Origin: Stenotrophomonas sp. SAU14A_NAIMI4_5
GTDB lineage: Bacteria; Pseudomonadota; Gammaproteobacteria; Xanthomonadales; Xanthomonadaceae
DNA length: 64,000 bases
Reading direction: 5' to 3'
Assembly (NCBI RefSeq): GCF_003086795.1
Contig: NZ_CP026003.1
Coordinates: 1,198,777 to 1,262,776, forward strand
This document shows positions 2,281-20,921 of the stretch, piece after piece. The notes beneath the pieces were generated by a model. That model searched no databases. It was not told the origin of the DNA and was given only the letters and a program-made list of their open reading frames with translations. The position numbers and the translations under genes were made by a program. Every line of letters begins with the position of its first letter. The stretch's first letter is position 1.

Positions 2281-2340
2281 GCAGGCAGTTCCGGGCGCGA
2301 CGGGCGCGCCAAGCTCAGGGGGAAAGAGGGAAGAGGGGTG

Positions 2341-2616
2341 TCAGCGGCGTGGGGTGAACAGCCGCATCAGCGCCAGCACGGCCACCGCGCCGACCACCGC
2401 GCCGAGGAAACCGGCCGGCTTGCCGGGGGAATACCAGCCCATGTACTGGCCGAACCAGCCGGCCACCAGGGCGCCGACGATGCCGAGCACGATGGTCAGC
2501 AGGCAGCCCATGCGGTTGTTGCCGGGCATGAAGAAACGCCCGAGCAGGCCGACGAAGAAACCGACCAGCAGGATGTACAGCCAGCTGCTGCTGCCGAACA
2601 GACCATTCATGTGCAT
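2341..2616 (-). CDS. GlsB/YeaQ/YmgE family small membrane protein
   Basis: This 91-residue hydrophobic protein has three membrane segments, near residues 10-28, 35-56 and 66-85. The glycine-rich sequence GFFVGLLGRFFMPG and the later GAVVGAVAVL match the transglycosylase-associated (GlsB/YeaQ) family, stress-induced inner-membrane proteins of unknown mechanism. Two start codons are possible, 2616 (MHMNG) and 2610 (MNGL). It follows amgK transcriptionally only if both are read from one promoter; the 60-base gap leaves that open. Confidence 0.8.
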   Translation of the reverse strand: MHMNGLFGSSSWLYILLVGFFVGLLGRFFMPGNNRMGCLLTIVLGIVGALVAGWFGQYMGWYSPGKPAGFLGAVVGAVAVLALMRLFTPRR

Positions 2617-2678
2617 GCGTTCCGCTTGGGGTGGACGCAGCCTAGCAAGGCCAGGCTGCGTCCGTCACGGGTGTGCGA

Positions 2679-4172
2679 TCAGCAGCAGCCGTGGTCGCCG
2701 TGGCGGGTACCGCTGTCGGCAGCCACCGGCGAACCGCTGGTCTCGCCGCGCAGGCTGGCGGCGTAGTGCTCGCTGATGACCTTGGACACGCAGGCGGTGA
2801 CCTTCTTGCCCATCGGGATGTGCAGGAACTCGTTCGGACCGTGCGCGTTGGAGTGCGGGCCGAGCACGCCGGTGATCATGAACTGGGCGCCCGGGAACTT
2901 CTCACCCAGCATGCCCATGAACGGGATCGAGCCGCCTTCGCCCATGTACATCGCCGGCTTGCCGAAGAAGGCCTGGCTGGCGTCGTCGATGGCCTGGGTC
3001 AGCCACGGCGCCATGGCCGGGGCGTTCCAGCCGGTGGAGGCCTTTTCCAGGTCCAGGGTGACCTGCGCGCCGTTCGGCGGATCGCGCAGCAGCGCTTCCT
3101 TCAGCAGTTCGCCGCAGGTCTTGCCGTCGGCGGTCGGCGGCAGGCGCAGCGACAGCTTCACCGAGGTCTGCGGGCGCAGCACGTTGCCGGCCGATTCCAG
3201 CGGCGGCATGCCGCCCACGCCGGTGACCGACAGCGCCGGGCGCCAGGTGCGGTTGAGCACCAGCTCGGTCAGGTCCTCGTTCATCGGGCGCAGGCCGTCG
3301 ACCATCGGGAACTTCTCGAAGATCTCGGTATCGACCACTTCGGCGGCACGCTTGGCCTGGGCCTGGCGCTCGGCTGGGATCTCGACGTTCATGCCGTCGA
3401 TCAGGATGCGGCCGGTGTCCTGGTCCTCGATGCGCGACAGGATCTGCCGCAGCAGGCGGAAGCTGGACGGGATGACGCCGGAGGCATCGCCGGAATGCAC
3501 GCCTTCGTTGAGCACCTTGACCGTGAAATTGCCGCCGGTCAGGCCGCGCAGCGAGGTGGTGCACCACAGCTGGTCGTAGTTGGCGCAGCCCGAATCCAGG
3601 CAGACCACCAGCGACGGCTTGCCGATGCGGTCGGCCAGGTGGTCGACGTAGGCCGGCAGGTCGTAGCTGCCCGACTCTTCGCAGGCTTCGATCAGGACCA
3701 CGCAGCGGGCGTGCGGCAGGCCCTGGGCCTGCAGGGCCAGCACCGCGGCCAGCGAGCCGAAGATGGCGTAACCGTCATCGGCGCCGCCGCGGCCATACAG
3801 CTTGTCGCCACGCAGGACCGGGGTCCACGGGCCCAGGTCGTCATCCCAGCCGGTCATTTCCGGCTGCTTGTCCAGGTGCCCGTAGAGCAGGATGGTGTCG
3901 TCGCCCGTCTCGGCGCCGGTAGCCGGAATTTCCAGGAAAATCAGCGGGGTGCGGCCTTCCAGGCGGACCACTTCGACCTTCAGGCCGGGCAGCTGCTGGG
4001 CCTTGGCCCAGGTCTCCATCAGGGTGACCGCCTGTTCCATGTAGCCGTTCTGCACCCAGTTGGCGTCGAACATCGGCGACTTGTTGGGAATGCGGATGTA
4101 GTCGACCAGCTGCGGGACGATCTCGCTGTCCCACTTGTCATTGACGAATTGGCCGAGCTTGGCGCTGTCCAT
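2679..4172 (-). CDS. M20 family zinc metallopeptidase (dipeptidase-like)
   Basis: This 497-residue cytoplasmic hydrolase has the M20 metal-site layout: GHLDKQPE with His99 and Asp101, GGADDGYA with the bridging Asp132, and EACEESGS with catalytic Glu166/Glu167. A dimerisation domain interrupts the catalytic domain (roughly 210-330), as in carnosinase-like members. It probably hydrolyses short peptides; the substrate is not evident. I place the start at 4172, because GGAG lies a few bases upstream there, rather than at the longer in-frame start at 4196. The C-terminus ends in a His/Cys-bearing tail (GTRHGDHGCC), which could bind metal. The gene is divergent from the comEA-like gene; the 200 bases between should hold both promoters. 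Confidence 0.85.
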   Translation of the reverse strand: MDSAKLGQFVNDKWDSEIVPQLVDYIRIPNKSPMFDANWVQNGYMEQAVTLMETWAKAQQLPGLKVEVVRLEGRTPLIFLEIPATGAETGDDTILLYGHLDKQPEMTGWDDDLGPWTPVLRGDKLYGRGGADDGYAIFGSLAAVLALQAQGLPHARCVVLIEACEESGSYDLPAYVDHLADRIGKPSLVVCLDSGCANYDQLWCTTSLRGLTGGNFTVKVLNEGVHSGDASGVIPSSFRLLRQILSRIEDQDTGRILIDGMNVEIPAERQAQAKRAAEVVDTEIFEKFPMVDGLRPMNEDLTELVLNRTWRPALSVTGVGGMPPLESAGNVLRPQTSVKLSLRLPPTADGKTCGELLKEALLRDPPNGAQVTLDLEKASTGWNAPAMAPWLTQAIDDASQAFFGKPAMYMGEGGSIPFMGMLGEKFPGAQFMITGVLGPHSNAHGPNEFLHIPMGKKVTACVSKVISEHYAASLRGETSGSPVAADSGTRHGDHGCC

Positions 4173-4374
4173 CTGAAACTCCGGTTGCATGGGCATGTGA
4201 TCCCGCCATTCTACGCCTGTGCCGGGGGTAGGGTTTTTCCTACAACACGTCGGGTATTTGGCTGGCTTTTAGAAATCGCCGAAACCGATAGGCTGTGCAC
4301 ATGTGGTGACGGACACTGTTTCGACCGACGGGATTGCCGGTCGGGACGGCCAGAACCACAAGGAGATACACGTC

Positions 4375-4701
4375 GTGCCTTGGTCAGTCGTGTTCAGGGC
4401 GTTGGTGCTGGTGATGTGGGTGGTGGGGGCGCAAGCCGCCGAGCCGATCGACATCAACCGGGCCGATGCCCAGGCGCTGCAGCAGGGATTGACGATGGTC
4501 GGGGCCGTCAAGGCCGCGGCGATCGTCGAGCACCGGCGCAGACACGGCCCATTTCATCGCGTCGAGGACCTGACGCAGGTGAAGGGGATAGGGACAGCAA
4601 TCGTCGAACGGAATCGACAGCGGATCACCGTCGGCAACACGATGTTGCCAGCGGATCCGGTACCCGGATCGGTACCGGTGCGCTCCGTACCCAGGCGTTG
4701 A
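4375..4701 (+). CDS. ComEA-like helix-hairpin-helix protein
   Basis: This is a 108-residue exported protein. The start is the GTG at 4375, preceded by AAGGAGATACA, a strong ribosome-binding site; a longer frame starting at 4303 lacks one. A signal peptide (about residues 1-21, ending GAQAA) precedes a helix-hairpin-helix domain beginning PIDINRADAQAL, with LTQVKGIG as the second hairpin. ComEA-type domains bind double-stranded DNA in the periplasm during natural transformation and retract it across the outer membrane. Single-domain members like this are common in gammaproteobacteria and may or may not act in competence; no other competence gene is nearby. Confidence 0.75.
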   Translation: MPWSVVFRALVLVMWVVGAQAAEPIDINRADAQALQQGLTMVGAVKAAAIVEHRRRHGPFHRVEDLTQVKGIGTAIVERNRQRITVGNTMLPADPVPGSVPVRSVPRR

Positions 4702-5055
4702 CAGCAGGATCGTCGGGACCGGCAGGAGGCTGGTTCACCGGACACGGACAGGAAGGCCGGGTCCACCGACCGTCGCAGGGATGCGGCACCAATCACCAGG
4801 ATGGTGGCATCACAGACCTGTGGAAGGGGCTGAGATACAAACAGGACGAACGCGGTCGCGTGCAGGATGCAACGCCGCCCCCACAGCGCAGGATGCGAGG
4901 GGGTGGCAGCAGGCCGACAAGGACGTAACGAGTGCCCGGTACGACACATGGCTGTGTCGCCGGGCATTTCTCTTTCTGGCATGGGCAGCGTGTGGCGCGG
5001 CGCCTCACCGCCAATGGTGTAGGTTGGGGGTTCCCCACGGATTGGAACCTCCTGG
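4702..5055. other. Non-coding gap with one terminator-like hairpin
   Basis: I see no convincing gene in this 354-base stretch. It contains the hairpin at 4933-4975 and presumably the promoter of the L,D-transpeptidase gene that follows. An antisense frame with a lipoprotein-like start crosses the region but runs through two real genes and is not accepted. Confidence 0.5.
4933..4975 (+). terminator. Hairpin followed by T-rich run
   Basis: TGCCCGG pairs with CCGGGCA and, inside it, CGACACA pairs with TGTGTCG. The sequence TTTCTCTTT follows. This fits a rho-independent terminator for the comEA-like transcript, although it lies 230 bases past that stop codon. Confidence 0.6.
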
Positions 5056-6129
5056 ATGCGCCTGCCCCGCTTGCCCCTGATGCTCGCACTTGCCCTGGCC
5101 CTGCCGTTGGTGGCGCAGGCTGCGACGCCTGCCGCCAAGAGCACCACCGCAACTGCCACCGCCGAAGTACGCGGTCCGACCGATCTCAAACCCGGTGAAT
5201 ACCTGTGGCACCCGGAAGTGTCGCCGGCGGGCCCGATCGTGCTGGTGGTCAGCCTGGATGAGCAGCGCGCCTACGTGTACCGCAACGGCATCGCCATCGG
5301 CCTGAGCACGATCAGCTCGGGCAAGACCGGGCATGAAACGCCGACCGGTGTGTTCACGATCCTGCAGAAGGACAAGGACCACAAATCCAACCTCTACAAC
5401 AGCGCGCCGATGCCCTACATGCAGCGGCTGACCTGGGACGGCATCGCCCTGCACGGCGGCAGCCTGCCCGGGCACCCGGCATCGCACGGTTGCGTACGCC
5501 TGCCGCAGGCGTTCGCGCAGAAGCTGTTCAGCGAAACCCAGCGCGGCGACACGGTGGTGGTGGCTGATGCCAAGAGCGCGCCGATGACCCTGGCCTATCC
5601 GGCGGTGCTGGCACCGGTGAACGCACGCGGCCAGGCGCTTCCGGAAACCGAAGGCGCCAGCCCGACCAAGGCGTGGTGGGACGACGCGGCCGCACCGAGC
5701 GGCCAGGTCGGCATCCTGGTCAGCCTGCACGACCAGCGCCTGTACGTGCTGCGCGATGGCGTGATGATCGGCGAATCGCCGCTGCACGCCGATGCGCTGC
5801 CAGCCTTCCAGGGCACGACCCTGTTCGTGATGGGGCAGGGCTTCAGCGAAACGCCGAGCCCGCTGGACACCCAGCAGCGCCTGCACCAGTGGACCGCCTA
5901 CCCGCTGCTGGGCCAGGACCGTGCGCAGGCCACCCCGGACCTGCTGGCCACGCCGTCGCTGCCGATGGCGCTGCCCACTGATTTCGCCCGCCAGCTGTAC
6001 CAGGTGCTGGTGCCGGGCACGACCCTGCTGGTCACCTCGCTGCCGGCGGTGCGCCCAAGCGCGGCTGAATCGGGGTTGCAGCCGGTCTTGGAATCCGAGC
6101 CGGCCACGCCCACCTTGAAGAAGTCCTGA
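5056..6129 (+). CDS. Exported L,D-transpeptidase (YkuD family)
   Basis: This 357-residue periplasmic enzyme has a signal peptide (residues 1-22, ending VAQAA). The YkuD domain contains HGGS at 133 and SHGCVRL at 143-149, giving the His133/Cys146 catalytic set. L,D-transpeptidases make 3-3 cross-links in peptidoglycan or attach proteins to it. Residues 230-345 look like a second, shorter copy of the fold (GQVGILVSLHDQRLYVLRDG echoes the N-terminal IVLVVSLDEQRAYVYRNG) but lack the SHGC motif, so this half is probably non-catalytic. The gene lies 11 bases before another L,D-transpeptidase of a different family and may be co-transcribed with it. Confidence 0.88.
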   Translation: MRLPRLPLMLALALALPLVAQAATPAAKSTTATATAEVRGPTDLKPGEYLWHPEVSPAGPIVLVVSLDEQRAYVYRNGIAIGLSTISSGKTGHETPTGVFTILQKDKDHKSNLYNSAPMPYMQRLTWDGIALHGGSLPGHPASHGCVRLPQAFAQKLFSETQRGDTVVVADAKSAPMTLAYPAVLAPVNARGQALPETEGASPTKAWWDDAAAPSGQVGILVSLHDQRLYVLRDGVMIGESPLHADALPAFQGTTLFVMGQGFSETPSPLDTQQRLHQWTAYPLLGQDRAQATPDLLATPSLPMALPTDFARQLYQVLVPGTTLLVTSLPAVRPSAAESGLQPVLESEPATPTLKKS

Positions 6130-6140
6130 GTGAATACCGT

Positions 6141-6869
6141 GTGCCCATGATTGCTTCACGCACGCGCTGGCAGGCCGCCTGCGGCCTGCTTGCGCTCCTT
6201 GCCGCGGGTGGCGCGATGGCGGCGGCACCGCCGGCCACCGCCAGCACCGACGACCTGACCGCGCTGCTGGCGCGCACGGCGCCCAACGCCGACCGCCACG
6301 TACTGAAGCTGGCGGCGACGGCGTTGCGCTGCGCGCTGCAGCGGCCGGAACTGGGCATCAAGGCCGAGCGGCTGGGCGTGATCGATTATTCGCGGCCGTC
6401 CACCGAGCAGCGCCTGTGGGTGTTCGACCTGGCACGGCAGCGGCTGCTGTTCGAGGAATGGGTGGCGCACGGCCGCAACAGTGGCGGCAACCGCACCGAG
6501 CACTTCTCCAACCGCGACGGCAGCTTCATGTCCAGCATCGGCGCGTTCACCGCGCAGGAAACCTATATGGGCGGCAACGGCTATTCGCTGCGCCTGGACG
6601 GGTTGGAGCCGGGCTTCAACGACAAGGCGCGCGACCGTGCCATCGTCATCCACGGCGCGCCTTACGTGAACCCGACCATGGCCCGCCTGCAGGGCCGGCT
6701 CGGCCGCAGCCTGGGCTGCCCGGCGGTGCGCCTGTCGGTATCGCGGCCGCTGATCGATTCGCTGCGCGGCGGCACCCTGGTGTTCGCCTATTACCCTGAT
6801 CCGCAATGGCTGCAGCACTCGCAGCTGCTGGCGCCGCAGTGCGGCGAGGCAGGCGTGGCTGCGCGGTGA
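6141..6869 (+). CDS. Murein L,D-transpeptidase catalytic domain protein (YkuD_2 type)
   Basis: This is a 242-residue exported protein. It starts at GTG 6141 or ATG 6147 and has a signal peptide ending near residue 28. The catalytic region is IVIHGAP with His171 and LGCPAVRL with Cys193. This Gly-Cys-Pro arrangement marks the YkuD_2 (DUF4105-unrelated) branch rather than the SHGC branch of the neighbouring enzyme. The predicted site of action is periplasmic peptidoglycan. It follows the first transpeptidase by 11 bases, so the two probably form an operon acting on the same wall. Two different classes side by side suggest a division of labour, but the sequence does not show which cross-link each makes. 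Confidence 0.82.
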   Translation: MPMIASRTRWQAACGLLALLAAGGAMAAAPPATASTDDLTALLARTAPNADRHVLKLAATALRCALQRPELGIKAERLGVIDYSRPSTEQRLWVFDLARQRLLFEEWVAHGRNSGGNRTEHFSNRDGSFMSSIGAFTAQETYMGGNGYSLRLDGLEPGFNDKARDRAIVIHGAPYVNPTMARLQGRLGRSLGCPAVRLSVSRPLIDSLRGGTLVFAYYPDPQWLQHSQLLAPQCGEAGVAAR

Positions 6870-6903
6870 TGCGCGATCGCGCGCGGCATGATGCAATGCG
6901 CGC

Positions 6904-7509
6904 ATGGACATAGATGCTCTGCTGCGCACCCCGAGCCAGGTGATTCCCAGCCTGGACTACCGCCGCGAACGCTGGCGCAATGGCCTGGGCTGGACCCGCG
7001 AGATCCTGCGCCTGCCCGCGCAGGGCGATGACTGGGCGCTGCGCCTGTCGGTGGCCGAGATCGAACAGGACGCCGCGTTTTCCGCGTTCCCCGCCGTGGA
7101 GCGCGAGCTGGTGCTGCTTCAGGGCAATGGCGTGCGCCTGCGTTTCGCCGATGGCCGCGTGGCCGAGGTGCTGCCGCCGCACGGTCGCGTGCGCTTTGCT
7201 GGCGAAGAAGCGCTGGACGGCGAGCTGGTCGATGGAACCACCCACGATTTCAACCTGATGTGGAAGCGCGGGTTGTTGCAGGCCGAGCTGCTGCACCGGC
7301 CGCTGGTGGGGTCGATGTTCTTCTTCTGCGAACCGGGCGTGGCCTGGGCGTTGTATCTGCTGGCCGGGCATGCGGAATTCGGTGCGGACAGTGGGTTGCC
7401 GCCGATGCAGGCCGGGGATACCGCATGGTTGGCCGCCAGTGAAAGGCAACGGCATGCATTGCAGGGCGGCGGCGAGTTGTTGGCGATACGGGTAACGACC
7501 GCCGGGTAG
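6904..7509 (+). CDS. HutD/Ves family cupin protein
   Basis: This 201-residue cytoplasmic protein begins with the HutD pattern: SLDYRRERWRNGLGWTREI, then WALRLSVAEIEQDAAFSAFP. HutD proteins are beta-barrel cupins thought to cap histidine utilisation by sensing an intermediate; Ves is the E. coli relative. There is no hut operon in the window, so the role here is open. The stop codon TAG at 7507-7509 is also the TAG of a GTAG palindrome. The last 22 codons are copied as part of an 83-base direct repeat starting at 7595. Confidence 0.8.
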   Translation: MDIDALLRTPSQVIPSLDYRRERWRNGLGWTREILRLPAQGDDWALRLSVAEIEQDAAFSAFPAVERELVLLQGNGVRLRFADGRVAEVLPPHGRVRFAGEEALDGELVDGTTHDFNLMWKRGLLQAELLHRPLVGSMFFFCEPGVAWALYLLAGHAEFGADSGLPPMQAGDTAWLAASERQRHALQGGGELLAIRVTTAG

Positions 7510-7525
7510 CGCCGGGCCATGCCCG
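7443..7525 (+). repeat. Direct repeat copy 1: 3' end of hutD plus GTAG palindrome
   Basis: These 83 bases (the end of the hutD-like gene, its stop codon and most of a GTAG palindrome) recur exactly at 7595-7677, an offset of 152. Confidence 0.9.
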
Positions 7526-7710
7526 GCGTGATGGGGCGTCATGGAGCGTCATCCACGCATGGCGTGGATCTACCCATCCACGCAGGGCGTGGATAAGGCA
7601 ACGGCATGCATTGCAGGGCGGCGGCGAGTTGTTGGCGATACGGGTAACGACCGCCGGGTAGCGCCGGGCCATGCCCGCCACCGCGCAGTAGATCCACGCC
7701 ATGCGTGGAT
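7506..7710. repeat. Cluster of GTAG (SMAG) palindromes
   Basis: Members lie at 7506-7528 (GTAGCGCCGGGCCATGCCCG type), 7551-7573 (inverted, ending GTGGATCTAC), 7658-7677 and 7688-7710 (GTAGATCCACGCCATGCGTG type). A further imperfect ATCCACGC copy lies at 7575-7594. They fill the gap between the hutD-like gene and the flavoprotein gene. Confidence 0.85.
7595..7677 (+). repeat. Direct repeat copy 2: orphan copy of hutD 3' end
   Basis: This is an exact copy of 7443-7525. It carries no start codon of its own and is not expected to be translated. Confidence 0.9.
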
Positions 7711-7717
7711 GCGGTTG

Positions 7718-7756
7718 GGGGTCAGAGCCCTTTCCTGCGGAAAGGGATCCGACCCC
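7718..7756 (+). repeat. GGGGTCAGAG...GACCCC palindrome, copy 1
   Basis: This 39-base near-palindrome has the core AGCCCTTTCC/GGAAAGGGAT. It is the first of six copies of this family in the window and lies just past the stop of the leftward flavoprotein gene, where it could fold in the transcript. Confidence 0.85.
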
Positions 7757-7766
7757 GATCGGTGGG

Positions 7767-9371
7767 TCAGTACACGTCGCGCCGGTAACGACCGGCCAGC
7801 AGCAGCGCTTCCTTGCCGTCGGCACCGAGCACCTGCTCGATCACTGCGTCCACCGCTGGGGCCATGCCCTGCAGGCTGCCGCAGACCAGGATCGTGGCGC
7901 CTTCCTCCACCCACTGCCGCAGCGTTGCCGCTTCGGCCAGCAGCCGGTCCTGCACGTAACGGTGCGCGCCGCCATCGCGGCTGAACACCGCATTTAGTCG
8001 TGCCAGCGTGCCGTCGGCCAGCATCGCCTGCAGTTCGTCGCCGAAATGGAAATCGTGTGCGGCCGAGCGCTCGCCGAACAGCAGCCAGGTGCGGCGCGCG
8101 CCCGTGCGGGCGCGTTCGTGCAGGTGCGCGCGCAGGCCGGCGATGCCAGTACCGTTGCCGATCAGCAGCAGCGGTACCTCGGCAGCAACGCCGTGGAAAT
8201 TCTGGTTGCGGCGCAGGCGCAGCTGCACCGGTTCGTGCAGCACGGCGTGGTCGCACAGCCAGCCACTGCCGATGCCGGGCGTGCCGTCGGCGCGCAGCTG
8301 GCGGCGCAGCAGCAGTTCCAGCGCGCCATCGGCCATCACCGAGGCAATCGAATACTCGCGGTGCGGCAGCGGCTGCAGTGCCGCCAGCAGCCCGGGCAGG
8401 TCGCCGGGTGCCACCAGGCTGGGCAGGTGCGAGCGCACGACGCGATCCAGCAGGGTGCGGCCATCGTCCAGCGGCAGCTCCGGATTGAAGTCGCGTTCGC
8501 GCAGCCAGTCGCGCGTGCTGGACGCGGCGTGCTGCGGGCCGATCTCGGCAATATCGCCGGCCTGCCACTGCGTATCACTGCCGGCCGGTGGCTGCAGGCG
8601 CAGCCAGTACACCGGCCCGCCGAGGCTGCCGGGGTTGAGGTGTTCGCGCTGCAGCAGCGGCCACGGCTGGTAGTCGGCCGGGCTCCAGTCGGGCAGTTCG
8701 CTGGCGCCGCCGCCGATCTGCCCGAGCAGCTGCTGCCAGTGGCGCAGCGCGGCGGGATCGGCGTTGTCGACTTCGATCGCATCGAACATCGGGTGCGCGC
8801 CGTGCTGGCGCAGCCAGTCATCAAGCTGGTGGCCGAACGCGCAGAAGTGGCCGTAGCTGCGGTCGCCCAGCGCAAGCACCCCGAACTGCAGGTGGCCCAG
8901 CGTTGGCGAGGTGCTCATCACCCGGCGCAGGAAGGGCAGGGCGTGGTCAGGGGCATCGCCTTCGCCGGTGGTGCTGGCGATGAACAGTGCACGCTGGCTC
9001 TGCGCCAGCAGTGCGGCGTCGACTTCATGCAGGCCGCGCACGCGCACCGGCAGGCTGGCGGCGCGCAGGGCCTCGGCGCTGCGTTCGGCCAGTTCGCGGG
9101 CGAAGCCGGTCTGGCTGGACCACACCAGCAGCAGCGGTGCGACATCACCACTGGCGGCGTCATCGCGCGGTCGGCCGCGCCACCACAGTGCGGTGTAGGC
9201 CAGCGCGTACAGCGCCGTCGCCAGCAGCGCGCCCTGCCAATGCCGCGCAGGCGGTGCGCCCTGCCACCAGGTTTCGCCCAGGTGCAGGCGCAGCAGTGCG
9301 TAGCCGGCCACGGCCAGCAGCACCATCACGATCAGGTTGCCGAGTACGGCGCGCGACGGTCGGCTGCTCAT
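7767..9371 (-). CDS. Membrane-anchored flavodoxin/FAD/NADPH reductase
   Basis: This 534-residue protein has two membrane segments (about 9-31 and 45-65), a flavodoxin domain beginning LLLVWSSQTGFA at 81, an FAD-binding ferredoxin-reductase domain with REYSIAS near 336, and an NAD(P)-binding domain with IGNGTGIAG near 404 and LVCGSLQG near the C-terminus. The order matches sulfite-reductase flavoprotein/P450 reductase. It should take electrons from NADPH on the cytoplasmic side and pass them to a membrane partner. The start ATG overlaps the stop of apbE (ATGA). Being last in the iron-linked operon that begins with a CirA-like receptor, it is likely the electron source for a periplasmic ferric-siderophore reductase. 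Sulfite as substrate is unlikely, since no hemoprotein subunit is present. Confidence 0.85.
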   Translation of the reverse strand: MSSRPSRAVLGNLIVMVLLAVAGYALLRLHLGETWWQGAPPARHWQGALLATALYALAYTALWWRGRPRDDAASGDVAPLLLVWSSQTGFARELAERSAEALRAASLPVRVRGLHEVDAALLAQSQRALFIASTTGEGDAPDHALPFLRRVMSTSPTLGHLQFGVLALGDRSYGHFCAFGHQLDDWLRQHGAHPMFDAIEVDNADPAALRHWQQLLGQIGGGASELPDWSPADYQPWPLLQREHLNPGSLGGPVYWLRLQPPAGSDTQWQAGDIAEIGPQHAASSTRDWLRERDFNPELPLDDGRTLLDRVVRSHLPSLVAPGDLPGLLAALQPLPHREYSIASVMADGALELLLRRQLRADGTPGIGSGWLCDHAVLHEPVQLRLRRNQNFHGVAAEVPLLLIGNGTGIAGLRAHLHERARTGARRTWLLFGERSAAHDFHFGDELQAMLADGTLARLNAVFSRDGGAHRYVQDRLLAEAATLRQWVEEGATILVCGSLQGMAPAVDAVIEQVLGADGKEALLLAGRYRRDVY

Positions 9372-10339
9372 GCGGCCTGCTCGTCGAGCAGGCGCTGGAA
9401 GGCGCTGCTGAGGGTTTCGCGCGGGCCGTCGATGGCCCGTTCCAGATAGCGTGCGGCCAGGCCTTCGCGCTCGGCCAGGGCCAGGCCCTGTTCGCGGCCG
9501 AGGACGGTCAGCGCGGTGGCCCAGGCATCGGCGTGCATCGCATCGTCGGCCACCACGGTCACGGCGGCGGCGACCTGGCGCACCGGCATGCCGCTGCGCG
9601 GGTCCAGGCTGTGGCTGTAGGCCTGGCCATCGGCCTGGTACTGGTGCCAGCGGTCGCCCGAAGTGGCCACGGCCTTTCCATCCAGTGCCAGCACGCGCGG
9701 CGGCGTGCCGGTGTGTGCGTCTTCTTCCGGTGCCGATTCCACCAGCACGCGCCACGGTTGCCCATCGGGCTTGCGGCCGTAGCCGGCCAGTTCGCCGCCC
9801 ACTTCGATCAGCGCAGCGGTGATGCCCTGCGCGCGCAGCCAGGCGGCGACGTGGTCGACACCGAAGCCTTTCGCAATCGCAGAGAGATCCAGTTCCAGGC
9901 CACCGGGTTGCAGCAGCGCGTCATCGCGCCATTGCAGCTGCTGCCAGCCGCAGCGGGCGCGGGTGGCCTGCAGGGTGGCGGCGTCGGGCACGCGGCGCGG
10001 GCCGGCCTGTGCACCGAAACCCCACAGCGCGACCAGCGGGCCCAGGGTGGGATCGAAGGCACCATCGCTGGCAGCAGCAATGACCTGCGCCGCCGCCAGT
10101 ACATGGCGGGTTTCGGCCGGCAGCGGGCACCACTGGCCCGCGTCGGCGCGGTTGTAGTGGCCCAGGTCCGAACCGGCTTCCCAGGTGCTCATCTGCGCGA
10201 CCACCTCATCCAGGCGCGCCTGGATGCCGGCGTGCAGCGGGTGCAGGTCGCGCTGGCGTGGCGCCACCAGCGACACACTCCAGGTGGTGCCCATGGTGGT
10301 GCCGCCGAGGCGGGCGATATCGAGCAGGGAATCGGTCAT
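9368..10339 (-). CDS. apbE: FAD:protein FMN transferase ApbE
   Basis: This 323-residue protein has the ApbE motifs GGTTMGTTWSV near the N-terminus, LDLSAIAKGFGVD, IEVGGELAGYG and SHSLDPRSGMPV. ApbE enzymes attach FMN through a phosphoester to a Thr or Ser of periplasmic redox proteins. The start is placed at 10339 (MTDSLLDIARLG); upstream in-frame sequence is not family-like. No signal peptide is obvious from this start, so periplasmic export would need another route or a different start. The gene overlaps the reductase by four bases and lies two genes downstream of a DUF2271 protein that carries a plausible flavinylation motif (DGVTGPT), its most likely client. Confidence 0.88.
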   Translation of the reverse strand: MTDSLLDIARLGGTTMGTTWSVSLVAPRQRDLHPLHAGIQARLDEVVAQMSTWEAGSDLGHYNRADAGQWCPLPAETRHVLAAAQVIAAASDGAFDPTLGPLVALWGFGAQAGPRRVPDAATLQATRARCGWQQLQWRDDALLQPGGLELDLSAIAKGFGVDHVAAWLRAQGITAALIEVGGELAGYGRKPDGQPWRVLVESAPEEDAHTGTPPRVLALDGKAVATSGDRWHQYQADGQAYSHSLDPRSGMPVRQVAAAVTVVADDAMHADAWATALTVLGREQGLALAEREGLAARYLERAIDGPRETLSSAFQRLLDEQAA

Positions 10340-10391
10340 GGCGGGGCGTTGCAGGCGCAATGCCGGGACGGGCCCGGCACCGCGGTCCACG

Positions 10392-11195
10392 TTACTGCGG
10401 CAGCACTTCCAGGGTGGCAACGTAGCTCAGGCGGCGCTTGGCGGCCTGCTTCACCGAGGTCTTGTTGTCTTCGGTGCCGGTTTCCAGCCAGTACATACCG
10501 GCTTCCGGCCAGGTCACCTTGATCTCGCCCTTGGCGTCGCTGGTCAGCTTCAGCTCGTCCTGCGCGTTGCGGTAGCGGGTGGCGCCACGCACGATCTCGA
10601 ACTCGAGGCCGGCGGTCGGCTTGCCATCCACCAGCACGCGGAAGGTCGCTTCCTCGCCGGCGAACAGATCGTTCGGATGGCCCACGGCCACCAGTTCGAT
10701 GCCGCGGTTGGTCGGCTTCAGCGCGGTGTCGTTCGGTGCGCCGTTGGTGACGAAGGTTTCCACGCGGCCCACCGACTGGCTCACTTCCAGCTTCTTCGCA
10801 TCCTTGGGCAGTTCGCCGAAGGTGGCGGCGGTGCCGCGCCAGCGCTTGCGCTCGCCGTTCTGCTCGTAGGTGGCGAACAGGCCATCATTGACCGAGGCGA
10901 TGCGGTAGGTGCCCTGCTGCTTCAGCTCGAGGTCGAACACGCTGCGGTACTTGCCGGTGGCCGCGTTCTGGGGCTGCACGCTGCTGCCGTCCGGCGCGGT
11001 GATGACCAGCGATTCCAGGCGCAGCGGCACGTGGTTGAAATAGAACAGGTCGTTGGAGACGGCGCCGTCAACGGTGATCCACGGCGCGTTGCCGGCGATG
11101 ACGGTCTGCGAGGGCAGCAGCCAGGCCTTGTGGGCCAGGGCGGAGAACGGAAGGGCAGCGGCCAGGGCGGCGGCTAGGACGAGCGTGCGCTTCAT
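10392..11195 (-). CDS. DUF4198 periplasmic protein
   Basis: This 267-residue protein has a clear signal peptide ([21 protein letters not shown], cleavage near 21/22). The mature form begins [10 protein letters not shown], the N-terminal His signature of DUF4198 proteins, which often accompany metal uptake. It then has beta-rich repeats and ends in a C-terminal LYVATLE-like strand. The N-terminal His could contribute to metal or heme binding after cleavage. It sits between DUF2271 and apbE, all leftward, separated from DUF2271 by two palindromic repeats (11216-11306). Function within the locus is inferred only from context: a periplasmic partner in iron-siderophore handling. Confidence 0.8.
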
Positions 11196-11215
11196 GCGGA
11201 AGACTCCAGTTGGAA

Positions 11216-11306
11216 GGGGTCGGATCCCTTTCCAACGGAAAGGGCTCTGACCCCGAGGGATAGGGCAATGGGGTCAGAGCCCTTCCTGCGGAAGGGATCC
11301 GACCCC
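11216..11306. repeat. Two GGGGTCAGAG...GACCCC palindromes, copies 2 and 3
   Basis: Copy 2 (11216-11254) and copy 3 (11270-11306) lie in opposite orientation, 15 bases apart, between the DUF2271 and DUF4198 genes. Transcribed, each can form a stem of about 17 pairs; together they could also pair with each other. Confidence 0.85.
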
Positions 11307-11316
11307 GGTCAAGCAG

Positions 11317-11835
11317 TTACGGCTTGACGGCCAGGGTGACCTGGCCCAGCTCGGTAGCGCCCTGCGCCTTGCCGGTCTGTGCGGCGGTGGCCGGCCAGGT
11401 GAAGGGGATCTTCAGCAGTTCGCGGCCGCCGACTTCGCGCACCGCTTCCACCACCAGGGTGTAGCTGCCCGGGGCCAGCTGCTTCAGCGCCGGCTGCTGG
11501 TCGCTGAAGGACAGCGCGTGCTTGCCAGCCGGGCGGGTCGGACCGGTCACGCCGTCCACCGGCACCTGCAGGGTGCGGCCGCTCTTGCGCCACCACTGGC
11601 GCAGGTCGGGCAGCCACTTGGTGCCATGGCCTTCGCTGTTGCCGGTCTGCTGGTACCAGACCGACAGGTTGGCGGCGACCTTCTGGTCGGCGCCTTCCAG
11701 CCACACGGCCACATACGGGCGGTGGTATTCGGCGACGTTGAGCTTGGGCACTTCGACGTTGATGTCGAGGGTGGCCGCGTAGGCCGGCGAGGTGGCCAGC
11801 AGACCGCTGAGGGCGATGGTGAGGGTGACGCGCAT
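11317..11835 (-). CDS. DUF2271 periplasmic protein, candidate flavinylated carrier
   Basis: This 172-residue exported protein has a signal peptide (about 1-21, ending AYAA). The mature part matches DUF2271: LDINVEVP, YRPYVAVWLE-like strand, WLPDLRQWWRKSGR and VDGVTGPTRPAGKH. Residues 94-100, DGVTGPT, resemble the ApbE target pattern D-x-x-(S/T)-G-(A/P)-(S/T), in which the last Thr receives FMN; this would be Thr100. ApbE is encoded two genes downstream. I infer a periplasmic FMN-bearing electron carrier between the PepSY membrane protein and ferric siderophore. The role is not shown by experiment; the motif and gene neighbourhood are what can be seen. Confidence 0.82.
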   Translation of the reverse strand: MRVTLTIALSGLLATSPAYAATLDINVEVPKLNVAEYHRPYVAVWLEGADQKVAANLSVWYQQTGNSEGHGTKWLPDLRQWWRKSGRTLQVPVDGVTGPTRPAGKHALSFSDQQPALKQLAPGSYTLVVEAVREVGGRELLKIPFTWPATAAQTGKAQGATELGQVTLAVKP

Positions 11836-11864
11836 GGGGCGGCTCCGGAGGGAACGGATGGAAG

Positions 11865-12503
11865 TCAGTGGATCAGCAACAGGGCGATCAGCAGCGGGAT
11901 CATCAGGCCCAGGCCGACCAGCGGCCAGGTCATGCGCCGCTGCCGCGCATGCAGGTGCAGCAGGAACAGGCCGGTGATGCAGAACACCAGGCAGGCCACC
12001 GCGAACAGGTCCAGGAACCAGCCCCACGCCGGGCCGGCATTGCGGCCCTTGTGCAGGTCGTTGAGGTAGGACACCACGCCGCGCGAGGTCGATTCGAATT
12101 CCACCGCACCGCTTTCGCGGTCGATGCTCAGCCAGGCGTCGCCGCCGGGGCGCGGCAGCGACAGGTAGATCTCTTCCGGCGACCATTCGGCGGGGCGCCC
12201 GCCGATGCCGATATCCAGCTGCGCATCCAGCCATTGCCGGGCGGGCAGCGGAATGGGCGCGTTGCCGTCTTCGCGGTCACCCAGCGTGCCCAGCAGCTCG
12301 GCCGGCAGTTCCAGCTTCTGGTTCTGCACCTGCGGCTTGGCTTCGATCTTCGCCGCGTGGTTCAGGGTCAGGCCGGTGGCCGCGAACAGCAGCATGCCGA
12401 TCAGGCACACCGCCGAGCTGATCCAATGCCACTGGTGCAGCGTACGCAGCCAGAAGCCACGGCTTTGTTGCTGCTGCACGGCGGAAGAGGCGGGACGGCT
12501 CAC
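11865..12503 (-). CDS. PepSY-associated transmembrane protein (heme electron conduit candidate)
   Basis: This 212-residue inner-membrane protein has an N-terminal membrane helix at about 27-47, a periplasmic PepSY-like domain from about 50 to 150, and two C-terminal helices (160-185 and 192-211). Histidines sit at helix ends: His23 and His26 (LHQWHW), His49 (LTLNH), His151 (NDLHKG), His183 and His185 (LLHLH). This is the placement seen in heme-b-bearing PepSY_TM reductases of siderophore systems. It would carry electrons across the membrane from the flavoprotein reductase to the periplasm. A Fur-like site lies 40 bases upstream, so the five-gene reductase unit may have its own iron-responsive promoter besides read-through from the receptor gene. 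Confidence 0.8.
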
Positions 12504-12542
12504 GGCGTTTTTCGGGACGGGTGGAGACTACCCATTACAGCA

Positions 12543-12565
12543 TTAATGAGAATGGCTCGCAATTA
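12543..12565 (-). promoter_or_regulatory. Fur-box-like site upstream of the PepSY gene
   Basis: Read on the minus strand, AATTGCGAGCCATTCTCATT resembles the imperfect inverted repeat bound by Fur. It lies 40 bases upstream of the PepSY start and downstream of the receptor stop, suggesting an internal iron-regulated promoter. Confidence 0.6.
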
Positions 12566-12637: not shown

Positions 12638-15055
12638 TCAGAACTTCGCGTTCAACGAGATCCAGTAACTACGGCGCTGGTCCTTGGTCGCATAGTCATC
12701 CACGCAGTTGAACTCGCTCTGGCTGATCAGCAGGCACGACTGCGAGACGAAGTTCTTGTCCAGCAGGTTGTTGATGCGTGCATTGAAGGTCAGCCACGGG
12801 GTGGCATCCCAGCTGCCGCCCAGGTGGAAGATCGTGTAGTCCTGGTAGTAGCGGTTGTGGCTGGCGCCATTGGCGTCGAGGATCGTGTCGCGGTAGCGGT
12901 CGTAGCGGCCTTCGCCGATCAGGGACAGGCTGATGGCATCGTTGAGCTGCCAGTTGAGGCTGGCATTGGCCATGTGCTTGGCCGGGGTCGTACCGGCGAT
13001 CGGCAGGCCCTTCTGCGCGCCGCTGGTCTGCTCGCTCTTGGTCCACGTGTAGTTGCCGCGCAGCTGCAGGCTGTCCAGCAGATCGACGTGCGCGGCCATT
13101 TCCACGCCACGCGTTTCGGCCTTGTCGATGTTCACGCTCTGGGTGAAGGTGCTGTAGCCCAGTTCGGCCCAGCCCGGGCCGATGTCCACGCAGTAGCCGC
13201 TGCCGGCCGGGGCCACTTCGCAGTTCGGGAAGGTGCCGCCGCTGGCGATCTTGTCCTCGAACTTGTTGATGAAGCCGGTGACGTTCAGGCCCCAGCGCTG
13301 GCCTTCGTAGTACGCGGCCAGCTCGTAGTTGGTGCTGGTTTCCGGCTTCAGGTTGGGCGAGCCCACCAGCGGCAGCACGCCCTGGCCGCCGAAGCCGCTG
13401 ATGCCGGGGAACAGCTGGTCCGGGCGCGGGGTCTTGTAGCCGGTGCTGACGCCACCCTTGAAGGTCCAGGCGTCGCTGGCATTCCACACCAGGTAGCCGC
13501 GCGGGCTGACGTGGCTGCCGAACACGTTGTGGTCGTCGTAGCGCAGGCCGAAGGTCGCGGTCAGGGTGTCGGTCAGCGACCAGTTGTCCTCGGCGAACAG
13601 CGCCCACATGCGGTGCTTCTGCTTGGTGTTGCTGCGGTAACCGGCGCCATCCATGCCGAACACGCCGTCGATCATGTCGGTGTCGTTGTACTGGCCGCCG
13701 ACAGTCAGCTTGTGCGCGCCGAAGTCCAGGTCGAGCACCGTGTCCAGCACGTAGCCTTCCAGTTCCATCGTGCGCAGCGGACGCGGCAGGAAGGCCTGCA
13801 GGCGCGCCATCTCTTCGGCGTTGAGCGCACCGAGTGCGTTGCTGCGGCCGGCCGCGCAGTTGCTGGCGGCGCCGGTGCGCTGGCAGACGTCGTTCCACAG
13901 GGTCTGCAGGTTGGCGCGCTCGTCCAGGGTCAGCGGCAGCGAGCGGCCGAGGTTGTTGCTCTTGCTGTGGGTCAGCGAGGTCTGCCAGGTGCCGAAGCTG
14001 TAGCGGCCCTGGTGGGTCAGTGACAGCTGGTCGCGCTCGTAGCGCTGGTAGGCGGTGTAGCCCACGCGCGGCTGCACCACGCGGCGGGTGATCGTGCCGT
14101 TGCCGTTCGGGTTGGGGATGACCGCGTTGCCGACGCGCCACAGGCTGGCCAGGCTGTCCAGGGTGCCGGTCTGGCCTTCACTGTTGTCGTACTTCTGCCG
14201 CGAGACGTCGTAGTCCAGCCACAGCTCGTGGTCGTCGTTGATGCGGAAGTCCAGGCGCAGGCCGGTGTTCCAGTTGGTGTTGGCCACCGACTTGCCACCG
14301 CCGCCGAAGCCGATGCTGCGCTCCCACAGCGTGCCATCGGGCAGGGTCAGCGCATCCCATTCGGGGTTGGAGGCCTTGGCATCGTAGTAGCTGCCGCGCA
14401 CGGCCATGCTGACGCGGTCCTTCAGCAGCGGGCCGCTGAGGTAGACATCGGTGGTGCGTGCATCGCCGAACTGGTCGTCCTGCTGCACGGTGAAGCCCTG
14501 GCTGAGCGACCCGTGCCAGCTGTCCTGGTTGCGGCGGGTGATGATGTTGATGACGCCGCCCATCGCATCCGAGCCGTACAGGGTGGACATCGGGCCGCGC
14601 ACCACTTCGATGCGCTCGATGGCGTCCAGCGGCGGCAGGTAGGAGAACTGGCCGCCGCCGAAGTTGTTGGGGTACAGCTGGCCGACATTGCTCTGGCGGC
14701 GGCCGTCGATCAGCACCAGGGTGTATTCGGACGGCAGGCCACGCATGGAAATGGTGGCGCGGCCGTTCTTGTCGGTGGCTTCCAGGCCGACGTCGATGCC
14801 TTCGACGTCGCGCAGCGCATCGACCAGGCTGGTGTACGGGCGCTTGGCCAGTTCCTCGCGGCTGACCACGCTGATGCTGGCCGGCGCATCGACCACCTTC
14901 TGTTCGAAACCGGCGGCGGTGACCACCACCTTGTCCAGGGTATGCGGGGCGGCGGCCTCGCCGTTGGCGAAGGCGGGGCTGGCGAAGGCGGTCAGCACGG
15001 CGCTGGTCAGCAGGTGGCGGGACAGGGACGAACGGACACGATGGCGCTGGGCCAT
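12638..15055 (-). CDS. TonB-dependent siderophore receptor, CirA-like
   Basis: This 805-residue outer-membrane protein has a signal peptide (about 1-32, ending SPAFA). The plug begins TLDKVVVTAAGFEQ and includes the TonB-box region, DAPASISVVSREEL and YTLVLIDGRRQSN, IERIEVVRGPMSTLYGSDA and GVINIITRR. These phrases follow E. coli CirA closely in order and wording, so a catecholate siderophore or its breakdown product is the likely ligand. The C-terminal residue is Phe, as in beta-barrels. The start at 15055 is chosen over 15115 because the signal peptide begins there. It is the head of the reductase genes to its left and lies under the Fur-like site near 15745. Related receptors take up catechol-cephalosporins such as cefiderocol. 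Confidence 0.9.
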   Translation of the reverse strand: MAQRHRVRSSLSRHLLTSAVLTAFASPAFANGEAAAPHTLDKVVVTAAGFEQKVVDAPASISVVSREELAKRPYTSLVDALRDVEGIDVGLEATDKNGRATISMRGLPSEYTLVLIDGRRQSNVGQLYPNNFGGGQFSYLPPLDAIERIEVVRGPMSTLYGSDAMGGVINIITRRNQDSWHGSLSQGFTVQQDDQFGDARTTDVYLSGPLLKDRVSMAVRGSYYDAKASNPEWDALTLPDGTLWERSIGFGGGGKSVANTNWNTGLRLDFRINDDHELWLDYDVSRQKYDNSEGQTGTLDSLASLWRVGNAVIPNPNGNGTITRRVVQPRVGYTAYQRYERDQLSLTHQGRYSFGTWQTSLTHSKSNNLGRSLPLTLDERANLQTLWNDVCQRTGAASNCAAGRSNALGALNAEEMARLQAFLPRPLRTMELEGYVLDTVLDLDFGAHKLTVGGQYNDTDMIDGVFGMDGAGYRSNTKQKHRMWALFAEDNWSLTDTLTATFGLRYDDHNVFGSHVSPRGYLVWNASDAWTFKGGVSTGYKTPRPDQLFPGISGFGGQGVLPLVGSPNLKPETSTNYELAAYYEGQRWGLNVTGFINKFEDKIASGGTFPNCEVAPAGSGYCVDIGPGWAELGYSTFTQSVNIDKAETRGVEMAAHVDLLDSLQLRGNYTWTKSEQTSGAQKGLPIAGTTPAKHMANASLNWQLNDAISLSLIGEGRYDRYRDTILDANGASHNRYYQDYTIFHLGGSWDATPWLTFNARINNLLDKNFVSQSCLLISQSEFNCVDDYATKDQRRSYWISLNAKF

Positions 15056-15212
15056 GGCAGTAACCTCGAAGGATGCAGGATGGTGCGATGCCGGCGCGGA
15101 ACGCGCGGCATGCACGGGGAGCCCCGGTCAGGGGCAGCAGGGATGCAGCAGGGGATGGAGCAGGCAGCGGCGCGCAGGCGCGACCGCAGGCGCGGTCACG
15201 CGGGGCCGAAGA

Positions 15213-15742: not shown

Positions 15743-15764
15743 TTGCAAATGAGAATGATTGCCA
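15743..15764 (-). promoter_or_regulatory. Fur box upstream of the CirA-like receptor unit
   Basis: TTGCAAATGAGAATGATTGC is a strong Fur-box match (inverted halves around GAGAATGATT). A second half-site, TAATGAGAGC, lies at about 15724. The site is between piuC's stop and the small gene preceding the receptor, pointing leftward. Confidence 0.75.
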
Positions 15765-16521: not shown

Positions 16522-18846
16522 TCAGAAACGGACGTCCGCGCTGAGCAGGAAGGTGCGCGGGGCACCCGGGGTGTAACGGTAGCCGCTCTTGTTGATGCTG
16601 GCCACGTACTGCTTGTCGAACAGGTTGTAGCCGTTCAAGCGCAGCGACACGTTCTCGTTGATCGCCCAGGACACCACCGCGTCGTAGACCACATACGATT
16701 TGGTGAACGCCGGGGTGCCGACGGCACCGTCGGTACCGCGGTGCATGCCATCGGCGTAGCGCACGCCACCGCCGAGGGTCAGGCCGAACGGCAGGGTGTA
16801 GCTGGTCCAGCCGGTGAAGGTGTCGGCCGGCGTGTAGGTGAGGTTGGTGGTGCCGTCCGCGGCGACGTTGGCGCCTTCCTTCACCTCGGTATCCAGGTGG
16901 CTGTAGCCGGCGGTGATCGACCAGTTGTCGGTCAGGCGGCCGACCGCGGAGAGCTCCACGCCCTTGACCCGCTTGCTGCCGGTCTGCGTCGGGTTGCCGG
17001 CGTCGTCGAGCACGGTGGTGTTGATCTCGTTGTCCACGTCGGTCTGGAACAGGGCCAGGTTCAAGGCCAGTGCATCATCGAGGAAGCCCCACTTGCTGCC
17101 GACTTCGAACGTCTTGGCCTTCTGCGGATCCAGCTTCGGGTTGTCGGCGCTGCTGGCCGAGCTGCTCAGCTGGAAGTTGGCACCGCCCGGAGGCTGCTGC
17201 GAAATTGCGTAATTGGCGTAGACGCTGACGGTGTCGCCGACCTTGTACAGGGCACCCAGCTTCCAGTTCAGCAGCGTATCGGAGGCTTCCATCGTGGGAT
17301 TGCGCAGCACGGTGCCGGTCGGGTTGCTGCCACACACCGGGCCGCCACGGCCGCCACACACCGAGGCGCTGGCGTACTCGGTCTTGTAGTGATCGGCACG
17401 CACGCCTGCGGTCAGCAGGAAGCTCTCGCCAAACGACAACGTATCGAACACGTAGGCCGAGGACGTGGTGGTCTTGCCGTGCGCGTCGGCACCGTTGTGC
17501 GCCCAGGTCAGGCCAGCCACGTTCCAGTCGGGGTCGTACAGGTTCGCCGCAGGCCAGCTGCTGCCACCGGTGGCGGCCTGGCCCTGGCTGTCCAGTTCTT
17601 CGCGGGTGAATTCCAGGCCGGCACTCAGGGCGTGGCCCACCGCGCCGGTGTTGAAGTCGGCGCGCAGGTTCACCTGGTCGGTCAGGATGGTGTTGCGCTG
17701 GTCCTTGAAGGTCGGCAGGCTGCGCGCGATCGCGTAGGTCGAGAGGTCCGCTGCGTTGGTATAAGTGATGTTGCCGGTCGGACGGCCGTTGGCGCCGCGC
17801 ACGCCGGTGCCCATGAACGCGGTCAGCAGGTAGTCCTGTTCGGTGCGGCCCCAGCGGGCGGTGTTGGTCAGGCGCACGCTGTCGTTGAAGTCATGCTCGA
17901 AGCGGAACGTGGCCATCTTCGCGGTCACGTCGTCGTGGTCTGCACGGGTGCCGTAGAAGTTTTCCGGGTCCACCGGATGGCCGGCCAGCGCTTCCAGCGT
18001 CGGCTGCGGCGTCCAGCCCGGCAGGCCCAGGGTCGGCACGCCGCCATCGGGCACGTTGTCCTGCTTCACATAGAGCAGGTTGAGGTAATAACGGGTCTCG
18101 GTGCCCAGGCCGAAGGCCAGCGACGGTGCGATGCCCCAGCGCTTGTTCTGCACGTGGTCGCGGCCGGGCTGGTCGCTGTCCTGCCACATGCCGTTGATAC
18201 GCAGTGCGCTGGTCGCCCCCAGGGACTGGTTCCAGTCGCCGGTGGTGCGGCGCTGCTGGTCGCTGCCCAGCGAAATGCTGGCCGAGGTCGCATCCTGCAG
18301 GTTGGCCTGCTTGCTGACCAGGTTGATCGCACCGGTGGGCGCCGAGCGGCCGTTGTCGGTGCCGGCCGGGCCCTTGGTCACTTCAACCTGTTCGATGTTG
18401 AAGACATCGCGCGAGATCGAGCCCAGATCGCGCACACCGTCCACGAACAGGCTGTTGGAGGTGTCGAAGCCGCGCATGAACAGCGCATCGCCGGTGGTGG
18501 TGTTGCCGTTCTCACCCGCATAGAAGGTGCCGACGCCCGGGCTGTTGCGCAGCGCTTCGGTGAGGGTGGTGGCGCCCTGCTGGTTGAACAGGTCGCTGGT
18601 GATGACCTGGATCGTCTGCGGCGTGTCCTGCAGGCGCTGGGTGAATTTCGGCGAGGCGACCTTGTCGGCTTTGTAGCCGCGCGTGGCATGCACGTCGATC
18701 TTGTCCAGCGTGCGTGCGTTGTCGGTGGCGTCTGCCATGGCCACGGCGGGGAGCGCGGCCAGGCCGAGGCCAGCGGCCAGGCTGGCGGTGGCCAGGGGCA
18801 GGGAACGAAGCGGGGAGGCGTGCTTGCGGCTCTTGATCGAGGTCAT
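16522..18846 (-). CDS. TonB-dependent catecholate siderophore receptor, PiuA/Fiu-like
   Basis: This 774-residue outer-membrane receptor has a signal peptide to about residue 39 (AVAMADA). The plug contains [55 protein letters not shown] and [17 protein letters not shown], then [17 protein letters not shown]. These follow the Fiu/PiuA pattern. The barrel ends in RF, a normal terminal aromatic. It transports ferric catecholates such as dihydroxybenzoate derivatives, and homologues are an entry path for cefiderocol. piuC follows on the same strand, and a small anchored protein plus a Fur-like site precede it. Confidence 0.9.
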
Positions 18847-19412: not shown

Positions 19413-19433
19413 AACGATAATGATTCGCATCTG
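19413..19433 (-). promoter_or_regulatory. Fur box upstream of the PiuA/PiuC unit
   Basis: AACGATAATGATTCGCATCTG contains GATAATGATT, close to the canonical Fur half-sites. It lies 50 bases before the first gene of the leftward piuA-piuC unit. Confidence 0.75.
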
Positions 19434-19510
19434 CGCGTTTGGCAGGCGTGCGTAAGCGGCGCGCAGGGGCGCTGTGAGGGCGCGCAGAGGGCGCGGGTGG
19501 CCAATCTGTA

Positions 19511-20496: not shown

Positions 20497-20537
20497 GGGG
20501 TCAGAGCCCTTTCGCGGTGCGAAAGAGATCTGACCCC
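20497..20537 (+). repeat. GGGGTCAGAG...GACCCC palindrome, copy 4
   Basis: This is a variant with CTTTCGCGGTGCGAAAG at its centre. Together with copy 5 at 20885 it flanks a single gene in direct orientation. Confidence 0.85.
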
Positions 20538-20594
20538 ATCCCTGCGAAAGTGACGGCACTATGGGAACCTGGATCCAGGGAGGATCTTGAGGGC

Positions 20595-20921
20595 ATGACC
20601 ATGCGATTCGACGCTGTTGTCTCTGTTCGCTTCCTGTCGAGCGCCGAGGGTGGGAGGCAGGGTGACATCATGGGGCAGGTATACGCCTGCCCGCTGTTCG
20701 TGGCGGGCCGTGCACTTGATTGCCGCCTGCTGCTGCGGGAAGGACGCGCCGTGCTTGGGGAGAGCTACGAACTTCCCGTTGCGTTTCTGTGCCCGGAGGA
20801 GGCGCTTGCCGTGGCCAGTGTGGGAGCGGATGTCGAGCTGTGGGAGGGAAAGACGATTGCGCGCGGCCGGGTTCTGCACGTGATGGGGTCAGAGCCCTTT
20901 CGCAGTGCGAAAGGGATCTGA
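20595..20921 (+). CDS. Small beta-rich protein of unknown function, flanked by repeats
   Basis: This 108-residue protein has no clear family. VVSVRFLSSAEGGRQGDIMG and a following DCRLLL recall the third beta-barrel domain of EF-Tu (RFLSxEEGGR), which is only a fold-level hint. The starts at 20595 (MTMRFD) and 20601 (MRFD) are both possible. The last eleven residues and the stop codon TGA at 20919 are encoded by palindromic repeat copy 5, so the natural C-terminus may have been replaced by repeat sequence. A similar repeat, copy 4, lies 58 bases before the start. The whole unit sits directly before a truncated regulator gene. Confidence 0.55.
   Translation: MTMRFDAVVSVRFLSSAEGGRQGDIMGQVYACPLFVAGRALDCRLLLREGRAVLGESYELPVAFLCPEEALAVASVGADVELWEGKTIARGRVLHVMGSEPFRSAKGI

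Follow-up and report, generated by a model that had tools for sequence, protein, structure and literature searches.

An ApbE without a recognisable signal peptide is encoded with its apparent substrate, a DUF2271 protein bearing a Sec leader, in a PepSY-like flavinylation operon of Stenotrophomonas

We analysed a stretch of 64,000 nucleotides (the window; positions 1198777-1262776 of the 4.57 Mb chromosome of Stenotrophomonas sp. SAU14A_NAIMI4_5) that holds a five-gene operon for a PepSY-like electron transfer system. Judged from its sequence, the ApbE flavin transferase of this operon apparently stays in the cytosol while DUF2271, the protein that it would load with flavin mononucleotide (FMN), carries a leader for export through the Sec pathway. 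A sequence-only reading of the same DNA had made sound observations on the operon and had interpreted them in a way that was largely in print already; it overlooked the absence of a signal peptide from the ApbE, and the mismatch of compartments between ApbE and DUF2271 is what the present analysis adds. The genes are transcribed in the following order, downstream of a TonB receptor gene:

11865-12503, minus strand: PepSY_TM_like_2 membrane protein, 212 amino acids, GTG start (PF16357, 274.9 bits, and PF03929)
11317-11835, minus strand: DUF2271 protein, 172 amino acids, with a Sec-type leader (PF10029, 171.1 bits)
10392-11195, minus strand: DUF4198 protein, 267 amino acids (PF10670, 193.5 bits)
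9368-10339, minus strand: ApbE, the flavin adenine dinucleotide (FAD):protein FMN transferase, 323 amino acids (PF02424, 274.1 bits)
7767-9371, minus strand: flavodoxin/NAD-binding reductase, 534 amino acids (PF00258 and PF00175)

Domain matches and minus-strand coordinates thus bore out the five-gene unit that had been described behind the receptor gene. The gaps between PepSY and DUF2271, DUF2271 and DUF4198, and DUF4198 and ApbE are 29, 121 and 52 bases, and the reductase gene overlaps the ApbE stop by 4 bases. A tblastn comparison found all five genes in 78 of 80 named loci, mostly from Stenotrophomonas, Pseudoxanthomonas and Xanthomonas; the two exceptions, L016 and L020, lie on contigs that break off early. 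The window DUF2271 shares 99% identity with its counterpart in Stenotrophomonas cyclobalanopsidis.

Export signals were scored with a home-made measure, the best uncharged hydrophobic stretch of 10 residues after any in-frame start up to 75 residues before the domain, with a cut-off of 1.8. All 22 lipoprotein ApbEs used as controls passed, as did 21 of 470 random internal points. Over the 75 residues ahead of its domain, no in-frame start of the window ApbE is followed by a hydrophobic stretch, and no export signal of the canonical periplasmic type, lipoprotein or other, is recognisable. In a survey of the phylum, DUF2271 matches were found in 70 of 398 genomes (65 above cut-off); the first sample consisted of 67 operon-scale regions and 29 ApbE flanks, and every PF02424 match was located in 64 of those genomes. 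The score cut-off was reached by 5 of 110 in-operon ApbEs (0/78 from named loci and 5/32 from the survey), by 102 of 110 DUF2271 proteins and by 109 of 109 DUF4198 proteins. Among the five ApbEs that passed, a lipobox was seen only in L139; the leaders of L128, L129, L162 and L170 were short or proline-rich and were set aside by eye. All 78 ApbEs from the named xanthomonad loci are without a recognisable signal peptide.

We had predicted beforehand that at least 90% of the ApbEs in a second sample would be signal-less. This sample came from two surveys with a match in 31 of 289 and in 30 of 250 genomes; part of these genomes had belonged to the first sample, and 32 new ones lay above cut-off. 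It contained 18 separate in-operon ApbEs, of which 17 were signal-less by inspection and one was a lipoprotein (G840, locus L275); by score alone, three reached 1.8 (G479, G738 and G840). When the survey operons were pooled, 48 of 50 ApbEs were signal-less by inspection and 8 of 50 reached the score cut-off. In a second layout, in which PepSY and the reductase form one protein (domains verified on L181 and L176 only), ApbE scored below 1.8 in 11/11 first-sample and 7/7 second-sample loci. ApbE-DUF2271 fusions reached 1.8 in 7 of 10 cases. A short RVLIP- or VAIP-like motif before the domain is frequent in signal-less ApbEs outside the xanthomonads (L128, L129, L143, L148, L155, L157, L264-L267 and L271-L273). 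In a table for Brucella ovis (PMC9045290), an ApbE whose locus number adjoins PepSY and flavodoxin genes has its domain from residue 18, so that a signal peptide could hardly fit in front of it.

Translation confirmed the motif DGVTGPT at DUF2271 residues 94-100, with Thr100 last, behind the leader MRVTLTIALSGLLATSPAYA; a signal peptide together with an acceptor motif is the pattern of PepSY-like systems. Conservation of this motif in apbE-linked homologues, which the sequence-only reading had proposed as a check, was found in 107 of 110 operons with an in-operon ApbE under a loose pattern and in 103 of 110 under a strict one, D-x(1,2)-[ST]-G-[AP]-[ST]. The published acceptor pattern is [S/T]GA[S/T] (PMC8238504); proline replaces the published alanine before the acceptor threonine in 80 of 80 named loci. 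Elsewhere in the operon the loose motif occurred in 0/110 PepSY proteins, 0/109 DUF4198 proteins and 2/103 reductases. Sequence and comparison with published systems support DUF2271 as the flavin carrier, with Thr100 as the predicted acceptor.

The same genome has a second flavinylation-type locus, L092, with ORFs (open reading frames) at 4233-5720 (minus strand), 5796-6701, 6732-7529 (minus strand) and 1746-4106 (minus strand); its contents are DUF4198-like, EF-hand-like by sequence, a leader-bearing ApbE-DUF2271 fusion and a TonB-receptor-like ORF. In this fusion, as in some other ApbE-DUF2271 fusions, the acceptor site is altered, here to QGIARPT.

Since ApbE appears to stay inside the cell, DUF2271 is probably loaded before export. 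We think it likely that the operon encodes an iron-responsive, Fur-type PepSY-like electron transfer system with a cytosolic ApbE dedicated to DUF2271, in which ApbE, using cytosolic FAD, would put FMN on Thr100 of the DUF2271 precursor, and the flavin-bearing precursor would leave via Sec. We are also inclined to think that a large and old clade of ApbEs is cytosolic and flavinylates unfolded or not-yet-exported DUF2271 precursor, the covalent flavin then passing through Sec. In E. coli, a DUF2271 was flavinylated by its ApbE when both were without signal peptides, and a threonine to alanine change abolished the modification (PMC8238504); the E. coli Sec machinery takes phosphopantetheinylated and biotinylated precursors (PMC3418276).

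The chain drawn in the sequence-only reading implied that the operon ApbE flavinylates DUF2271 in the periplasm, which is at odds with the missing signal peptide of that enzyme. The chain as published could nonetheless hold if DUF2271 were modified in the periplasm by an operon ApbE exported in a non-classical way, or by a different ApbE that does bear a signal, for instance a fusion. Characterised ApbEs are mostly periplasmic lipoproteins, and in Salmonella the location of the enzyme made a difference (PMC12052999); the window genome does have a signal-bearing ApbE-DUF2271 fusion; and 18 genomes (16 from the first and 2 from the second sample) have a PepSY-DUF2271-DUF4198 operon without an in-operon ApbE, each with a lipoprotein ApbE elsewhere (three of the lipoboxes were read by eye) that presumably serves it. 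We nevertheless regard this explanation as unlikely, given the named-locus ApbEs, none of which reaches the score cut-off, and the 34 of 48 signal-less cases in which the operon ApbE is the sole PF02424 ApbE of its genome (27/32 first-sample and 7/18 second-sample operon genomes).

The descent of the ApbEs was followed on a tree of 93 rows. The 32 operon ApbEs formed one group (100/81) and the 11 second-layout ApbEs another (100/99), and the two were joined, with one long-branch row, at 94/98. The lipoprotein L139 branches first in the operon group, the remainder holding together at 94/87, and two changes of signal state are needed on the tree. All 31 signal-less operon ApbEs keep key columns such as D86, E169, G172, E173, S217, G218, H233, D261 and T265 (domain numbering), which we take to include the catalytic residues; the window ApbE has the PF02424 domain with the key columns. 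Other columns, invariant in 22-23 of 23 lipoprotein ApbEs, vary among the signal-less operon ApbEs, for instance Y220 (12/31), P91 (14/31) and A189 (7/31).

In the proposed chain, electrons would pass from cytosolic NADPH (reduced nicotinamide adenine dinucleotide phosphate) to FAD and then to the flavodoxin FMN of a membrane-anchored reductase, from there through PepSY-held heme or hemes across the membrane to FMN on periplasmic DUF2271, and finally to ferric iron supplied by an outer-membrane receptor, with DUF4198 holding a periplasmic metal ion, possibly the reduced iron. The reductase would have two N-terminal membrane helices (a reading of the sequence), a flavodoxin domain for FMN and a CysJ-like FAD/NADPH module; it gives 212 bits against the CysJ model TIGR01931, under the cut-off of 668. 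Over 474 amino acids it is 46% identical to the corresponding portion of a PepSY-reductase fusion of the same genome, and such single-protein fusions were also seen in L181 and L176. The fusion of the window genome (L095, 2614-5118) joins PepSY_TM, flavodoxin and NAD-binding domains, and the genome has four more PepSY_TM matches besides this fusion and the operon protein.

PF16357 and PF03929 both match the PepSY protein above cut-off, and its gene lies directly before DUF2271, as in PepSY-like flavinylation clusters. Its histidines H26 and H151 are kept in 130 of 130 sequences, H49 in 125, H212 in 122, H185 in 114 and H23 in 108. The conserved histidines stand at positions suited to bis-histidine heme sites, and the AlphaFold2 helices (5-50, 143-152, 157-188 and 192-211) are compatible with such sites; the structural match to the FoxB type is weak. 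The protein is a candidate heme b conduit, and heme occupancy and the direction of electron flow would be as drawn above. Among the closest known systems, the ferrisiderophore reductases FoxB and HiuB (PDB 7ABW; PMC13001220, PMC13038864) have membrane histidines placed for hemes, a periplasmic PepSY domain and a role in iron.

Most of this chain has been described. Meheust 2021 reported 3220 PepSY-like flavinylation clusters, of which 2833 have DUF2271, 1500 have DUF4198 and 231 include a TonB receptor, and put forward this chain together with a role in iron (PMC8238504). Those systems share with the window operon PF16357/PF03929, ApbE, DUF2271, a secreted DUF4198, proposed iron reduction and cited Fur repression, and some of them also TonB receptors or an NAD-binding reductase. 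In Caulobacter crescentus, an operon of the same gene kinds in the same order (transporter, DUF2271, DUF4198, ApbE and a sulfite-reductase-like flavoprotein; CC_3059-3063) has a Fur-bound promoter, is Fur-regulated and is induced under iron limitation (PMC3751524), and transposon mutants in CCNA_03155-03159 have lower fitness in ethylenediaminetetraacetic acid (EDTA; PMC11870441). The gene set, the motif conservation and the published DUF2271 flavinylation thus support an ApbE-dependent transmembrane chain with DUF2271 as carrier; the complete set and the DUF2271 carrier, which had been offered as inference, amount to a rediscovery because these three papers describe the system. The location of ApbE in this operon type was not found in the published text that was compared: that of Meheust 2021 makes no remark on a signal-less operon ApbE, the clusters there having required that one or more of the target genes carry a signal, and the Caulobacter accounts, in their passages on the operon, name no TonB receptor and leave the location of ApbE undiscussed.

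Extracytosolic flavinylation is described as mostly periplasmic and as needing FAD outside the cytosol, by a route to ApbE that is obscure (PMC12052999). If the clade flavinylates before export, this question of FAD supply would be answered for one widespread system. Extracytosolic flavinylation could then be independent of periplasmic FAD, DUF2271/PepSY systems could be self-contained in bacteria with no other flavinylated protein, and a covalent redox cofactor would cross Sec in a natural setting, which could be tested simply by heterologous expression in E. coli. The ApbE of this system would be lost from genome screens that keep only ApbEs with signal peptides. As regards iron biology, flavinylated DUF2271, PepSY hemes and metal-binding DUF4198 would be united in one kind of operon with a Caulobacter phenotype on record.

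Two further features bear on iron and on regulation:

12638-15115, minus strand: TonB-dependent receptor, catecholate-siderophore-receptor-like, associated with the operon and not part of its core (PF00593 and PF07715)
12545-12564, minus strand: Fur-like operator, a 20-base block beside an extended -10 TGCTGTAAT (TGnTGTAAT element), within the 134 bases between the receptor and PepSY genes

The receptor had been called CirA-like. It is a CfrA/IrgA/CirA-type TonB receptor, but it falls below the CirA cut-off (316 against 745 bits), as it does for all 25 listed NCBIfam models of the 30 matched. Ferric siderophore, the acceptor named in the sequence-only reading, is a candidate substrate; 51 of 80 named loci have a related receptor directly upstream, the 21 Xanthomonas loci none. 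The Fur-like site placed at the head of the operon finds its sole support in conservation in Stenotrophomonas and Pseudoxanthomonas; the block is kept in 58 aligned upstream regions. The match to the E. coli Fur consensus (11/19) is equalled by a fraction of 0.28 of shuffles and is not significant alone, and no such site was found upstream in 21 Xanthomonas loci (7-10/19 to the same consensus). Near-perfect palindromes occur at the site in L074 (ATCAATGAGAAC-A-GTTCTCATTGAT, with 12-base arms) and in L079 and L087 (11-12 matching bases). Fur control of the window operon is possible. A predicted Fur regulon of S. maltophilia lists a pepSY gene pair (PMC6240677), which might correspond to the window gene. 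Further Fur-like sites in the window, at 15745-15763 and 19416-19434, match at 13/19 and 14/19; one precedes a small ORF that is itself upstream of the receptor gene, and the other lies upstream of a second TonB receptor (16522-18846).

DUF4198 is a predicted metal binder. It has the fold, and because its leader ends just before a conserved histidine, the mature protein should start HKAWLLP and so expose an N-terminal histidine. Identity to IsDUF4198 (9GCB) and Zcp (9MHI-9MHN) is 14-16%; IsDUF4198 uses His1 and His18 (PMC12537917), whereas the other conserved histidines of the window protein are 34 and 152. The system might reduce or handle copper, nickel or zinc, with DUF4198 as a metal chaperone: its relatives bind nickel (PMC12537917) and, by the titles of PDB entries, zinc, copper and cobalt, and CrpH, a PepSY_TM protein, is tied to copper (PMC13038864). 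Fur control and the EDTA phenotype of the Caulobacter operon speak against a metal other than iron, as do the Fur-like site and the siderophore-receptor-like neighbour in the window, and we find this explanation distinctly improbable. Iron or a siderophore would be the substrate in the reading that we favour, and the metal of DUF4198 may be iron.

Genomes whose sole ApbE is the signal-less operon enzyme were also compared with those whose operon lacks an ApbE. FMN_bind was found in 0 of 34 of the former and 18 of 18 of the latter, and DUF3570 in none of the 34 as against 6 of the 18; of the three substrate families looked for, the 34 genomes therefore have DUF2271 alone. This contrast is clustered by descent, with four switches on a PepSY+DUF2271 tree, where two independent pairs on firm branches were both as predicted. 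A search of six other genomes for FMN_bind found none in G000, G397 and G840 and one each in G154, G328 and G389. The cytosolic ApbEs of Klebsiella pneumoniae and kinetoplastids are likewise signal-less; their substrates are not exported, whereas the window DUF2271 has a Sec leader (PMC12052999). That the operon ApbE mainly serves some other cytosolic protein is very improbable, for although the Klebsiella enzyme serves a soluble fumarate reductase (PMC12052999), both FMN_bind, the usual substrate domain, and DUF3570, the two other substrate families searched, are missing from the sole-ApbE genomes, and the in-operon acceptor motif is essentially confined to DUF2271.

Minor observations concern the named loci and repeats in the window. 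L044, labelled Bacillus subtilis, has an operon of the Stenotrophomonas type (DUF2271 92% identical) and is probably contamination or mislabelling. A nested palindromic repeat of the GGGGTCAGAGCCC family occurs at 11196-11316, 7718-7730 and 20497-20925 (7 sites with at most one mismatch, 0.19 expected); it occupies much of the gap between DUF2271 and DUF4198 and is found again after the reductase gene. Clusters of the palindrome ATCCACGCNNNGCGTGGAT lie at 7551-7710 and 45582-45679 (8 sites with at most one mismatch, 0.01 expected).

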